Shown piece by piece: positions 14,367 to 19,102 of a DNA stretch of 64,000 bases; the first letter of the stretch is position 1, and every line of letters begins with the position of its first letter. This DNA comes from Chloroflexota bacterium (GTDB lineage: Bacteria; Chloroflexota; UBA6077; JACCZL01). The notes under the pieces are model-generated. The model was not told where the DNA came from and did not search any database. It was given only the letters and a program-made list of their open reading frames with translations. The position numbers and the translations under genes were made by a program. Where the stretch lies: contig JADZEM010000123.1 of NCBI GenBank assembly GCA_020850535.1, positions 124,001-188,000 on the forward strand, given 5' to 3'.

Positions 14367-16169
14367 CTAAGGCAAGCTACGTGCCAGCACCCTGCGAAGC
14401 CACGCTTCGAGCGTCACCAGCAGCCAGATTTTCGCGCCGATGCGTGGCCGAACCCCGCCGAGCTTCCCTGCCAGCAGCGCGTCGAGATACCGTTCCTCGA
14501 ACAGCCGGTACGGGCGCAGCCCGTCCAGCAGCCGCGCGCGGGCGGCCGGCAGCAGCGGCCCCCGGAACCACGCCTCCACGGGCACCAGCATGCCGCTCTT
14601 CGGCCGCTCCACGATGCTCGGCGGCAAGAGGTCGCGGACGGCCTGCTTGAGGATCCACTTCTCGACGGCCCCGCGCAGCCGCAGTTGCGGCGGCAGGCTG
14701 GCCGCCAGCTCCACCACTGCGCGGTCGAACAGCGGCGCGCGCGGCACGATGCCGAACGGCGCACTGAGATGATCGACCTTCGGCAGGATGTGGTGCGCGC
14801 CTTTGAACGTGATGTTGATCGCCATCAGCCGGGCCACGAAGGTCGGCCAGCGGGCGTCGGTCAGGAGCGGCGTCAGCTCGCGTTCCAACGGCAACACGCG
14901 GAGATGCTGCGCGACATCCGGCGCGAGCATGGCGTCCAGGTCGTCGTAGCATTTGCCGTGCGCCCGCAGGTAGCTGCGCTCGCGGGCGAGCGGGTCGTCC
15001 GCGCCACCGGAGGCGCCGTCCCCGAACAGCTCGGCCAGCACCATCGGCAGGTTCTTCGGGCCGCCAAAGCACGGATCGCCGCCCTCGCCGTTGAGGATGA
15101 CGCCCGCGTCCTCGGCCGCCCGCCGGAACAGCAGCGCGTTCGGCACCGTCAGCGGATCGCCAATCGGCTCGCTGAGCAGCCCGATGGTCTCGTCGAGGTG
15201 GCGCAGCACCGTGTCCGGCGACAGCTCCACGATCTGGTGCTCGGTCTGGCAGTGGGCCGCCACCAGCGAGCTGAACGGCAACTCGTTGGCGTACCCTTCC
15301 CCGAACGAGACGGAGTAGGTCCGCACGGGACGGTCGTGCTGGCGACTGGCGAGCGCCACCACGAGGCTGGAGTCGAGCCCACCCGAGAGGGACGCCCCGA
15401 CCGGCTCGCCGGGCGGCGGCAACCGACGCCGGACAGCCGTTTCCAGCGCCGCCCGGAGCCGCTCGGCCATGGGCGCAGGATCGGCCAGGAGCCCGGCAGG
15501 CGGCAGGCCGGCCGGCAGCCCCCAGAACCGGCCGCGCCGCGGCGTGCCAGCCCGGTAGCGCAGGCACTCCCCGGGCAGCAGCTCGCACACGCCCAGCGCC
15601 AGCGTCTCCCGCCCGGGGACGTACGCATACGAGAGGTAGCGGGCCACCGCCACGGGGTTGACCGCCCCTGGAACCAGCCCGCTCGCCAGCACAGCCGCCA
15701 GCGTCGAGGCGAAGACCAGCCCGTCAGGCGTCGCGGCGTAGAACAGGGTCCGCTCGCCCACCGGGTCTCGCGCGAGGGTCAGGGTGCCATGCTCGTCCAT
15801 CCAGGCCAGGACATACGCGCCCTCGACAGCGGCCAGCCGCTCCGGCGCAAGGTGTGGACGCCAGTCGTCGAGCGAGGTGAGCGGCTGACCGTCCTGCCAG
15901 CAGCTGTCCCAGTCCGCGACGAGCGCCGCCGTCAGCCCGTTGGCGTCGGCACGCCGCGCCTCCCCAAGGATGTGTGCGCCCGGCAGAAGCTGCGCGCCCG
16001 ACCCGAGCGCCGCCCGCATCCGTCTCAGCACTGCCGGATCGTCGTGCCCCAGCCGCCCATCGGCGCGCACCACCCCGCCGATCCGCCCGACCGGCCGACG
16101 GCGGACCGGAAGGCCAACGTCACCCCCCAACCCGCTGCGCGGCGCAGCTATCGGCTTCGCCGACATCAT
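14367..16169 (-). CDS. Asparagine-synthetase-like protein lacking the amidotransferase cysteine (AsnB1)
   Basis: 600-aa AsnB-family protein. The C-terminal ATP pyrophosphatase domain is well kept, with PP-loop SGGLDSS at 262-268, GEGGDPCFGG, and a family C-terminus. The N-terminal Ntn-type domain is recognisable (DPVGERTLFYA, FASTLAAVLASG) but has no N-terminal Cys; the usual MCGI is replaced by VGRIGGVV near residue 27. It should not hydrolyse glutamine and may use free ammonia or another amine, or receive it from AsnB2. The start overlaps the upstream stop (ATGA). The first ~14 codons derive from a shortened dispersed repeat, so the true family N-terminus may have been lost or replaced. AsnB homologues also serve as amide-bond formers (beta-lactam synthetase, lasso cyclase), so the product is open. 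Confidence 0.85.
   Translation of the reverse strand: MMSAKPIAAPRSGLGGDVGLPVRRRPVGRIGGVVRADGRLGHDDPAVLRRMRAALGSGAQLLPGAHILGEARRADANGLTAALVADWDSCWQDGQPLTSLDDWRPHLAPERLAAVEGAYVLAWMDEHGTLTLARDPVGERTLFYAATPDGLVFASTLAAVLASGLVPGAVNPVAVARYLSYAYVPGRETLALGVCELLPGECLRYRAGTPRRGRFWGLPAGLPPAGLLADPAPMAERLRAALETAVRRRLPPPGEPVGASLSGGLDSSLVVALASRQHDRPVRTYSVSFGEGYANELPFSSLVAAHCQTEHQIVELSPDTVLRHLDETIGLLSEPIGDPLTVPNALLFRRAAEDAGVILNGEGGDPCFGGPKNLPMVLAELFGDGASGGADDPLARERSYLRAHGKCYDDLDAMLAPDVAQHLRVLPLERELTPLLTDARWPTFVARLMAINITFKGAHHILPKVDHLSAPFGIVPRAPLFDRAVVELAASLPPQLRLRGAVEKWILKQAVRDLLPPSIVERPKSGMLVPVEAWFRGPLLPAARARLLDGLRPYRLFEERYLDALLAGKLGGVRPRIGAKIWLLVTLEAWLRRVLARSLP
16119..16169. repeat. Short internally deleted copy of the 131-bp GATGTCGGCGAAG element
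   Basis: On the minus strand it reads GATGATGTCGGCGAAG, then a short joint, then TGCGCCGCGCAGCGGGTT and a GGGGTGA end. These are the two ends of the element at 54493-54623 and 60379-60509 with the middle missing. It spans the joint between the zinc-ribbon gene and AsnB1. Confidence 0.65.
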
Positions 16170-17296
16170 CCGAACGAGTCCGCGCCGCCGTCGTCCGCGT
16201 CGGCATCCGAGCCGAACGACTCCTCGTCCTCGATCACGATGCCTTCCTGCATGTCGTCTTCGTCCAGGACGATGGAGCCGCCGCCCTCATCATCGTCATC
16301 CTCGTCAGGCTGCCGGTTCATCGCGCGGAACAGCCGCTTGAGCACCTGGTCCGGCCGGATGGCTGCCAGCTCCAGGCTGTACTGGCGCAGCCACTCGGCC
16401 TCGCGCTCGCTGATGCCCTCCTGAGTCAGCACCGCCGCCTGGGGCGTCGCCAGCCAGACCCCCCGGAACGGCCCGGCCTGCCCGGGCCGCAGCCCCACGT
16501 CCACCACCGGCGCCTGCCCGAGAAACCAGGATGGATCGTTGCTGAGCCGGTGCGCCAGTTGGCACCCATCGACCGTGGCGTCGTGCAGCGCGAAGACGCG
16601 CAGCTTCGGGTTCCGCTTGAGCATGGCACGGACGGTCTCGAAGGGCGCGGGCGGGTAGCCGTCCGCCGTCAGGATGGCGCAGTTGTTCTCGAAGTGGAAG
16701 TTGTTGGCGAGCAGCAGATCCACCGTCTCCGGGCGGTCGCAGATCACGGCGCGGTCGAACGAGTAGTCGCCGATGTCCGCTTCGAGCTGACGGCGGGGCC
16801 GCGATGGCGACGGCAGGGCCGGCCGCTCGATCAGGCCGGGCGGCGTGCCGTGCGCCTGCACCCAGGTGTGCAGCATCGGTGCGAACTGCTCGCGGGTGAG
16901 CGGCGGCGTCAGGCGACGGCGTCCACGCAGCCACCTGACGCCTGAGCCGAGCGCCCCCAGGCCCGCCACCACCAGGATGAACAGCCCGGCCCAGCGCGAG
17001 AAGGCGAACACGACCCCCAGGATGACGACCAGCACCCCGACGCCGATCCACTCGCCGGGGGTCGGCATGCGGAGCGCGCGGGGCCGGAGCCGCCGGCAGA
17101 CCTCGTAGTAGAGGTGGTCGGCTGTCCAGCGGACCTTGCCCTGCCCGGACACCCGCTCGATGGCGTGCAAGAACGCCAGATCGGTCAGCTTCGCCCCATC
17201 CTGCGGCTCGAAGGCGAACCGGCCCTTGCAGGCCGGGCAGGCCTTGTTCGAGCGGTCCTTCTTCTTGCTGTCGTGCCCGCAGCGGACGCACCTCAT
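16166..17296 (-). CDS. Zinc-ribbon membrane protein with a possible TOPRIM-like domain
   Basis: 376-aa protein of no family I can name. The N-terminus is a zinc ribbon (C3, C6, C20, C23). Two adjacent hydrophobic segments (about 83-99 and 102-118) make a membrane hairpin, so both ends face the same side, probably the cytoplasm. Residues about 178-255 (RAVICDRPETVDLLLANNF, CAILTADGYP, FALHDATVDGCQLAHRL) resemble a TOPRIM fold with weakened acidic motifs; this is inference. The C-terminal 40 residues are very acidic and probably disordered. It sits between two AsnB-like genes, with 3 nt to the upstream stop and a 4-nt overlap with the downstream start, so the three products are probably made together. 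Confidence 0.75.
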   Translation of the reverse strand: MRCVRCGHDSKKKDRSNKACPACKGRFAFEPQDGAKLTDLAFLHAIERVSGQGKVRWTADHLYYEVCRRLRPRALRMPTPGEWIGVGVLVVILGVVFAFSRWAGLFILVVAGLGALGSGVRWLRGRRRLTPPLTREQFAPMLHTWVQAHGTPPGLIERPALPSPSRPRRQLEADIGDYSFDRAVICDRPETVDLLLANNFHFENNCAILTADGYPPAPFETVRAMLKRNPKLRVFALHDATVDGCQLAHRLSNDPSWFLGQAPVVDVGLRPGQAGPFRGVWLATPQAAVLTQEGISEREAEWLRQYSLELAAIRPDQVLKRLFRAMNRQPDEDDDDEGGGSIVLDEDDMQEGIVIEDEESFGSDADADDGGADSFG

Positions 17297-17299
17297 CGG

Positions 17300-19102
17300 T
17301 CAGCCCGCCCCGGGGCTGCCGGCGGACGGCATACTGCCACCGGGCGGCACGCTTCCACCGGGCGGCCGGCCGCGCCCGTCCACGAACACCCGCAGCCACC
17401 CTTCCAGCATCACCAGCGTCCAGAGCCGCTCGCCGATCCGCCGCCGGCGCGTCTCGCCCGGCTCTGGCTCACCGCGCCGCAGCCGCCCCACGTACTCGTC
17501 GCGGAACAGCCCGCGCCGCGCCAGCGCCCCCGCGCCCACCAGCTCCGCGACCAGCCCGGCCAGCGGCCCCAGCACCCAGTCGGTGATCGGCACGCTCATG
17601 CCGTACTTGCGCCGCCAGACGATCTCCTTCGGCAGCTGATTCTGGAGGATCAGCTTCAGGATGTGCTTGTCGGACGCGCCACGCAGCTTCAAGGACGGCG
17701 GCAGCGAGAACGCCATCTCGGTGAGCGCCCGGTCGAACAGCGGCGCGCGCAGATCGAGCGCCCAGGCGTTCGTCAGCCGCTCGGCCCTGGGCAGGATGCT
17801 CTGCGAGCCTTTCAAGGCCAGGTCGGCCAGCCGGATGCGGTGCAAGAACGTCGAGGCGGCCCCGCCGCTCAGGTACGGCGCGAGCAGCGCCCGACGCTGG
17901 CCCGGCCCGCCAACGCTGGCCGCGAAGGCCGGGGTGTACAGGTCGTCCTCGCGACCGTAGAAGCGGTGGTACGACTCCAGGTACCGTTCCTCCCGCGAGT
18001 CTGCGCCGAACAGATCGGCGTACAGCTCGGCGGCGATCATCGGCTTGTTCGTCCAGCCGCCGAACAACTGGTCGCCGCCCTCGCCGTTGAACACCGCCGA
18101 GAGGCCCGCGCTCCGCGCCGCCTGCCCGAGCAGGTATTGCGGCCCGGTGACAGGGTCGCCGAACGGCAGATCGAGCTTCCAGACGAGATCCCAGAACGCC
18201 GCTTCGACATCTGCCCCCTGGACCGGCACGAAGGTCAGCGGGATGCCCAGGTGATCCGCGACCGTCTGCGCCTGCTCGCGCTCGACGCTCCGCTCGCCAA
18301 AGTCCAGGCTGAACGCCTGCACGCCGACGCCGGCCTGCTTGAGCCAGACGGCCACCCCTGACGAGTCCAGCCCGCCCGAGAGGTACAGCCCGACCTCGCG
18401 CTCGCCGTTGAGGCGGCGCGCAACGGCCTGCTGGAGCCGGTCCCGGACCCGCCGTACCGCCGCCGGCTGCTCCTCCAGAGACGGCTCGATCTGCTCGCGG
18501 AGGTGGACGTAGGGCCGGCTGATAAACTGCCCCCGCTCCCAGACACCGACGTGTCCGGGCAGCAGCCGGCGGATGCCCCGGATCGGCACGTCCTCGCCCG
18601 GCACGAACGAGAAGGTCAGGTACTTGTGGACGGCCGAAGGGTCCAGCTCAATCGGCAGGCCCGGGATCTGGAGCAGTTGCTTCAGCTCGGAGGCGAAGTA
18701 GAACGCACCCCGATGCTCGACGTAGTACAGCGAGCGCACACCGAACGGATCGCGCACCAGTGTCAGGCGCGCGCGGTCAGCGTCCCACCAGGCGCCTGCG
18801 AACGCCCCGTCCACGGACTGCCGCCGGGCCTCACCCTCGGGGCCATCCGCCAGGAGCGTGGGCAGCTCGGCGGCCGGAAACGGGACTGACGGCGCCAGCG
18901 TGCCCGCGCAGGCCGCCAGATGCGGCCCCTCGCGGAAGAGGCTCGGAGACTTGCCCGGCCGGCCTCCCCACCAGCGGTACCCGAGCGCGGCCTGCGGGCT
19001 GACCTCCCGGTCCGTGCGGTCGCCACGGTACGCGATGGCCCCGAGCATGGCGTCGAGCGCAGCCGAATCGGCCGCTCCGACCCACCCACAGAGACCGCTC
19101 AT
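17300..19102 (-). CDS. Asparagine-synthetase-like protein with Cys at position 5 (AsnB2)
   Basis: 600-aa AsnB-family protein and first gene of the AsnB operon. The N-terminal Ntn domain begins MSGLCGWVG; a Cys is present, but four residues in rather than at position 2, so it would need processing to act as the glutaminase nucleophile. Other features are normal: RDPFGVRSLYY, FASELKQLL, and a PP-loop SGGLDSS at 242-248. GEGGDQLFGG and a C-terminal helical bundle follow. It is clearly paralogous to AsnB1 in length and layout. It probably adenylates a carboxylate and forms an amide. Whether the product is asparagine or a modified peptide or cell-surface molecule is not shown. The purine-like N-terminal motif could also be structural. 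Confidence 0.88.
   Translation of the reverse strand: MSGLCGWVGAADSAALDAMLGAIAYRGDRTDREVSPQAALGYRWWGGRPGKSPSLFREGPHLAACAGTLAPSVPFPAAELPTLLADGPEGEARRQSVDGAFAGAWWDADRARLTLVRDPFGVRSLYYVEHRGAFYFASELKQLLQIPGLPIELDPSAVHKYLTFSFVPGEDVPIRGIRRLLPGHVGVWERGQFISRPYVHLREQIEPSLEEQPAAVRRVRDRLQQAVARRLNGEREVGLYLSGGLDSSGVAVWLKQAGVGVQAFSLDFGERSVEREQAQTVADHLGIPLTFVPVQGADVEAAFWDLVWKLDLPFGDPVTGPQYLLGQAARSAGLSAVFNGEGGDQLFGGWTNKPMIAAELYADLFGADSREERYLESYHRFYGREDDLYTPAFAASVGGPGQRRALLAPYLSGGAASTFLHRIRLADLALKGSQSILPRAERLTNAWALDLRAPLFDRALTEMAFSLPPSLKLRGASDKHILKLILQNQLPKEIVWRRKYGMSVPITDWVLGPLAGLVAELVGAGALARRGLFRDEYVGRLRRGEPEPGETRRRRIGERLWTLVMLEGWLRVFVDGRGRPPGGSVPPGGSMPSAGSPGAG

Follow-up and report, generated by a model that had tools for sequence, protein, structure and literature searches.

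Two remodelled AsnB-type proteins and an FG-tailed membrane protein form a gene module in a Chloroflexota genome and across other phyla

What do two unlike asparagine-synthetase-like (AsnB) proteins do in an operon that they share with a membrane protein of no known family? The question is raised by three genes in a 64,000-nucleotide stretch of a Chloroflexota genome (GCA_020850535.1, contig JADZEM010000123.1, positions 124,001 to 188,000; hereafter the window), which encode AsnB2, a middle protein (MID) and AsnB1. The coordinates and strand given by a first-pass annotation were confirmed, as was the close spacing, with a 3-nt gap between AsnB2 and MID and a 4-nt overlap (ATGA) between MID and AsnB1; these are real, translationally coupled genes forming a conserved module. 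Both outer proteins are full-length asparagine-synthetase-like proteins, as that annotation held, the Pfam family PF00733 (Asn_synthase) spanning the whole synthetase domain of each (225 and 233 bits), and MID has no significant family match in Pfam or NCBIfam. We tentatively favour, at rather less than even confidence, a membrane-anchored module whose AsnB1, together with AsnB2, would act on the C-terminal tail of MID as substrate.

At least 138 relatives came out of a scan of species genomes for MID, and loci were fetched for 80 of them. They belong to Beta- and Gammaproteobacteria, Myxococcota/Deltaproteobacteria, Acidobacteria, Planctomycetes, Armatimonadetes and many Cyanobacteria, and the gene set has a patchy spread over at least eight phyla. 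The first-pass annotation had raised the case of a middle protein usually found without AsnB genes; the opposite was observed, and the genes form a genuine unit with MID. Both AsnB genes flank MID in the 17 closest loci (L001-L017), from at least six phyla, all of which have adjacent, co-directional genes in the order AsnB2-MID-AsnB1 (in L016 AsnB1 runs off the contig). In Cyanobacteria a small membrane protein comes first, followed by AsnB2, the LysA-like protein and MID, and AsnB1 is convergent or elsewhere. One clear AsnB1 copy was found in each of 20 cyanobacterial genomes tested, most of which lack it in the fetched locus.

Co-occurrence was counted in 146 cyanobacterial genomes with a completeness of at least 95%. 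MID was present in 18, AsnB1 in 19, AsnB2 in 17 and the LysA-like gene in 16, all four being found together in 15, and neither AsnB2 nor the LysA-like gene ever occurred without MID. Fisher p values against MID were 3e-21 for AsnB2, 2e-19 for the LysA-like gene and 2e-16 for AsnB1, in related genomes whose events are not independent. One AsnB2 count (G336) is a cross-hit on an open reading frame (ORF) also counted as the AsnB1 of that genome, and three genomes hold cluster remnants only (G444), a damaged cluster (G446) or a broken AsnB1 (G343). The pairwise distances within the four families are correlated with one another (0.88-0.96), uncorrected for the species tree.

Among 93 MID sequences compared, 92 have F-G as their last two residues. 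D, E or Q occupies the fourth position from the C-terminus in 92, and S, G, N or T the third in 89. The linker leading to this tip varies in sequence and length, from 8 to 65 residues; 89 of the 93 tails have no lysine (composition D 16%, S 17%, G 17%, K 0.2%), and residues 369-376 of the window protein have a predicted local distance difference test score (pLDDT) below 50 in an AlphaFold2 (AF2) model. What had been described as an acidic tail is better described as a hypervariable D/S/G-rich linker, the conserved part being the last four residues, DSFG, an FG motif that the earlier description missed. Only 95 of the 12,254 stop-terminated ORFs of the fetched loci end in the motif, and 91 of these are MID; the remaining four counts are a MID fragment, a separate tail protein (counted twice) and one LysA-like ORF. 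A pattern search of the window genome for further DxFG-ending proteins, covering the Asp and TGA forms, returned only MID and stretches without a convincing gene.

The separate tail protein shows that the motif can leave MID. In a second Chloroflexota genome (G287) the order is AsnB2-MID-X-AsnB1, where MID is tailless and X, a protein of 200 residues, ends ...GSGGDFGTDSFG. In a second variant, that of family f26 and a relative, AsnB2 is missing and at least two MID paralogues are followed by an X-type protein ending DFG and then by AsnB1; this variant is also carried by a Streptomyces plasmid (L125), with X ending DDDFG. Throughout the tailless-MID loci L093-L098 and in L125, a membrane-type protein of about 200 residues adjoining AsnB1 ends DFG or DSFG, and among 201 Chloroflexota genomes X occurs only in those bearing MID. 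The smallest set seen, AsnB1 and an FG-tailed protein, is that of the cyanobacterial-sample genome L118, which has just AsnB1 and a MID ending GGDFG. Six genomes encode distant MID-like proteins and no AsnB1; FG was missing from the C-termini of those proteins at all five of the loci that were read. Because the tail shifts to X beside AsnB1, and because it is missing from the five AsnB1-less loci read, the FG tail follows AsnB1 and not the MID body. These observations support AsnB1 and an FG-tailed membrane protein as the working unit.

The MID paralogues of the second variant (L094-L098, L125) carry another conserved motif near their C-termini, G[FY][ML][ST]W or close to it. The distant MID-like proteins of L099-L102 keep the membrane hairpin and TOPRIM-like core described below, with no obvious zinc ribbon and no FG tail, and their genes adjoin one that resembles methylmalonyl-CoA mutase as judged by eye.

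The active sites of both AsnB proteins are altered. The glutaminase Cys of AsnB2 is replaced by Ser (MSGLCGW), its ATP loop SGGLDSS is intact and its signature reads NGEGGDQLFGGWTNKP; cyanobacterial AsnB2 proteins lack the MCG start entirely. AsnB1 has no glutaminase nucleophile, as the first-pass annotation had seen, and combines the loop SGGLDSS with the invariant signature NGEGGDPxFGGPKNxPM. The suggestion that Cys5 of AsnB2 serves in place of Cys2 did not survive comparison with the genome's canonical AsnB, whose start, MCGICG, puts its second Cys opposite Cys5 and its nucleophile opposite a Ser; Cys5 is thus no displaced nucleophile. That ordinary AsnB (contig 156), which also contains GGDELFAGY, identifies AsnB1 and AsnB2 as specialised paralogues.

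The residues around ATP are retained. The pyrophosphatase loop reads SGGxDSS in 25 of 25 AsnB1 sequences and SGGxDS in 33 of 33 AsnB2 sequences (last Ser in 29), and alignment with E. coli AsnB places GEG(G)D and the EK..LK catalytic-type lysine in both. The Glu-Tyr dyad of the carboxylate site, through which carboxylates are activated (E352/Y357 of the E. coli enzyme), is replaced without exception, by P366/P371 in AsnB1 (25/25) and by Q345/W350 in AsnB2 (33/33). This dyad is common to PesC, TsrC, ScdTA, AsnO and E. coli asparagine synthetase; in PesC, whose E363/Y368 are matched to the E. coli pair by motif spacing, it is important for carboxylate chemistry, and the Y368F change abolishes activity (PMC13060819). 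The outer proteins score 240 and 196 bits against NCBIfam TIGR01536, under its 267-bit cut-off, and both lie far under the curated NCBIfam cut-offs for lasso peptide cyclase, N-acetylglutaminylglutamine amidotransferase and XrtA amidotransferase.

With no glutaminase Cys in either protein and the dyad invariantly replaced, ammonia supply combined with asparagine synthesis by the pair is unlikely. We hold in very low regard the earlier scheme in which one AsnB yields ammonia from glutamine and the other forms an amide on a lipid or peptide: two full-length homologues do share one operon, but neither has the nucleophile needed for the ammonia step, cyanobacterial AsnB2 proteins do not even have the MCG start, and an ordinary AsnB with an MCG start and GGDELFAGY is encoded elsewhere in the genome. 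Ordinary asparagine synthesis or ammonia supply was rejected on the same grounds, the missing Cys2 and dyad and the ordinary enzyme. Of the amide-forming half of the scheme, the usual AsnB chemistry is in doubt, the dyad being replaced in both proteins, and the unit may take part in peptide or protein modification.

For the body of MID, the zinc ribbon, hairpin and weak TOPRIM-like segment recognised in the first-pass annotation are supported as predicted domains by conservation, the AF2 model (pLDDT 87, predicted template modelling score 0.85) and Foldseek (Table 1). The core YSFDR..CD..NNFHFENNCA..GYP is nearly invariant among relatives. The top Foldseek match is topoisomerase VI A, with a probability of 1.00 yet an E value of 0.018 and a TM score of 0.28-0.30, and a cyanobacterial MID matches the Spo11 TOPRIM profile at 0.00083, below the profile cut-off. 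In the metal triad, Asp (D187) stands at the Glu position in 87 of the 93 sequences, D239 is kept in 76 and is sometimes Asn, and the third acidic position is mostly S/T/N and so lost. With topoisomerase VI A/Spo11, MID has its best fold match, of low significance, and a weak profile match, and it differs in the missing third acidic residue, the occasional Asn for the second Asp and its membrane anchor. An active TOPRIM nuclease was rejected because the Glu and DxD triad is incomplete.

Table 1. Features of the AsnB2-MID-AsnB1 operon, in window coordinates
Feature	Position	Strand	Details or basis
AsnB2, AsnB-like protein	17300..19102	-	600 aa; 59-69% identity to non-cyanobacterial relatives
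MID (middle protein), zinc ribbon, TOPRIM-like domain and FG-ending tail, membrane	16166..17296	-	376 aa
MID N-terminal zinc ribbon (predicted)	17228..17290	-	C3, C6, C20, C23 invariant
MID two-helix membrane hairpin, residues 80-126 (predicted)	16919..17059	-	AF2 model
MID TOPRIM-like core YSFDRxVxCD...NNFHFENNCA...GYP...HDxxxxG	16523..16765	-	conservation, AF2, Foldseek
MID tail, Lys-free D/S/G-rich linker ending D-S-F-G-COOH	16169..16309	-	93-sequence comparison, AF2
AsnB1, AsnB-like protein	14367..16169	-	600 aa

How could such parts work together? In the arrangement that we favour, the MID hairpin would sit in the membrane with both ends of the protein in the cytoplasm, and the disordered, Lys-poor linker would let the -FG-COOH end reach the ATP site of AsnB1. 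AsnB1 may use ATP to activate the tail carboxylate, perhaps by adenylation, and the activated group would then be joined to an amine from a source other than glutamine hydrolysis by AsnB1, whether free ammonia, a small amine or one borne by another protein. MID would not be an enzyme but would serve as a carrier or tag, and AsnB2 would perform a second or partner step. In relatives, the LysA-like protein and an Ig-like-domain membrane protein may add to the action of the pair. We favour the tail end as substrate because asparagine-synthetase-like enzymes act on carboxylates, including peptide C-termini, as PesC, TsrC and ScdTA do in modifying the C-terminal carboxylate of ribosomal peptides (PMC13060819), and because the tail has a fixed last residue and almost always no Lys for an internal lactam.

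Several points weigh against this interpretation. The strongest is the replacement of the Glu-Tyr dyad in both AsnB proteins, with which carboxylate adenylation is not assured. The contact between tail and AsnB1 is itself a supposition. Gln precedes S-F-G in 17 MID sequences, so a second carboxylate is not essential there. Two cyanobacterial genomes (G410, G439) have an intact-looking AsnB1 with no MID match and no FG-tailed neighbour. The lost dyad makes it nearly as likely that the unmodified FG end is a docking tip, by which a disordered linker recruits AsnB1, and perhaps AsnB2, to the membrane while the enzymes act on some other substrate. We regard such recruitment as possible though doubtful. 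It needs no carboxylate chemistry, it explains the transfer of the tail to another protein, and it has a precedent in bacterial single-stranded DNA-binding protein (SSB), where partners are recruited by a conserved acidic tip at the end of a disordered linker (PMC7145534); MID shares with SSB the variable linker and conserved extreme C-terminus, here with an aromatic residue. It is harder to reconcile with a terminal G kept in 92 of 93 sequences with no extension, which is more than a docking motif usually needs, and the neighbouring genes suggest no alternative substrate. MID also differs from SSB in its zinc ribbon, membrane hairpin and TOPRIM-like domain, and it has neither the OB fold nor a demonstrated DNA-binding role.

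Loss of hallmark residues extends to every recognisable enzyme domain of the cluster (the glutaminase Cys, the Glu-Tyr dyad, the pyridoxal phosphate (PLP) Lys of the LysA-like protein in 63 of 63 copies, and the full TOPRIM triad), as would be expected if AsnB1 and AsnB2 bound ATP or an amino acid without turnover, MID transduced the signal at the membrane and the LysA-like protein bound a ligand. Such a sensor or regulator of pseudo-enzymes seems improbable to us, since the ATP loop, GEGGD and EK..LK residues are conserved as turnover would predict, and the neighbourhood has no conserved output domain or regulator. A pathway like those of ribosomally synthesized and post-translationally modified peptides, with the tail as a core peptide that is AsnB-modified, cleaved and exported, would fit a variable sequence with a conserved end, the tandem MID copies of cyanobacterial loci L038, L065 and L066 (up to three intact, more as fragments) and the presence of asparagine-synthetase-like enzymes in such clusters (PMC13060819). 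The tail is attached to large membrane proteins, though, and the module has no conserved protease or exporter, so we consider this a poor candidate.

Known systems resemble parts of the module. In PesC (a nitrile synthetase), TsrC and ScdTA, an AsnB family member is likewise genetically linked to a ribosomally made protein with a conserved C-terminal end (PMC13060819); the window proteins differ in lacking the glutaminase Cys, in the replaced dyad, in comprising two AsnB types and in having a membrane protein, not a short precursor, as partner. A protein with a zinc site and a short motif at its C-terminus can act as an amine carrier, as LysW demonstrates (PMC10433800). MID has, like LysW, a four-Cys zinc site and a short terminal motif with acidic, aromatic and Gly residues (DSFG against EDWGE), but LysW is a small amino-group carrier with its last Glu as attachment site and LysX/ArgX as ligases, whereas MID is a Gly-ended membrane protein paired with AsnB-like proteins; by analogy, MID resembles LysW in design and is not a member of that family.

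Beta-lactam synthetase, CarA and lasso cyclase are AsnB relatives that have the AsnB fold with a non-functional glutaminase and work without glutamine. AsnB1 matches 1jgt and 1q15 in sequence and shares the loss of glutaminase function; the differences are the scores far under the lasso cut-offs, another acceptor-site signature and a tail mostly without Lys for an internal lactam. Extending the substrate interpretation to a new C-terminal modification or carrier system, in which a remodelled AsnB-type ligase would activate the tail Gly and conjugate it to an amine, the tail being mobile between two unrelated membrane proteins, is a bolder claim, and we rate it as rather unlikely as it stands.

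The accessory genes of relatives were missed by the first-pass annotation. In the LysA-like protein the PLP Lys is Val in all copies of the fetched loci (e.g., L003 6605-7789, L036 8738-9982), HxY replaces HxH and the Cys-Glu pair is missing, with EPGR and GAYG kept; judged from these residues, the family is a conserved pseudo-decarboxylase, which RefSeq annotates as 'decarboxylase'. The Val also removes it as a source of amine by PLP decarboxylation in relatives. The gene was missing from eleven of the non-cyanobacterial genomes tested. The search of the window genome turned up no copy of it, just an ordinary LysA with YAMKAN; the query was inexact over its first ~18 residues, and as the match begins at residue 19 the outcome holds for the remainder. 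The Ig-like domain lies in the small membrane protein of the cluster. In several phyla a TrkA/ion-channel protein (RCK type) is repeatedly encoded close to the cluster (L003 12836-14515, L010, L030, L038, L047, L070), and a cupin protein recurs beside it in Myxococcota and Planctomycetes genomes without the pseudo-decarboxylase (L006 13761-14495, L008, L009, L010). In the window, a 100-aa ORF (P0004, 14049-14351, minus strand) immediately downstream of AsnB1 has no family match and no homologue in related loci.

MID-profile matches occur in 16 of 301 Chloroflexota genomes. The window proteins are nearer to those of other phyla (50-69% identity) than to those of their own (23-46%), which suggests horizontal transfer. 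The whole cluster is carried by a conjugative plasmid of Gloeothece verrucosa PCC 7822 (NC_014534, L124), near a gene annotated as protelomerase, where RefSeq names the products 'asparagine synthetase B family protein', 'decarboxylase', 'hypothetical protein' and 'asparagine synthase-related protein'. The clusters L001 and L005 come from metagenome bins labelled Bordetella parapertussis, a label that may be wrong because their genes are close to Betaproteobacteria-labelled loci. A known defence system was rejected, PADLOC matching only the QueC-like loop of AsnB2, and so was a phage origin, PHROG matching only AsnB/QueC/GlmS-like families.

The first-pass annotation knew no described system with this layout, and none emerged from a search of open-access papers with limited terms and of family libraries. 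The parts fall into known superfamilies, and their combination, the tail and the invariant active-site changes match no known system. Proteins like asparagine synthetase are routinely annotated as amino-acid enzymes. In this module their active sites are invariantly rebuilt, they have a membrane partner of their own that bears the tail, and a LysA-like protein without its cofactor lysine is often encoded next to them. Should the tail prove to be a substrate, the module would be a post-translational modification or carrier system of a new kind; a docking tip would make it a new means of recruiting AsnB-type ligases to the membrane. Either way, several 'hypothetical' and mis-annotated families become one testable unit.

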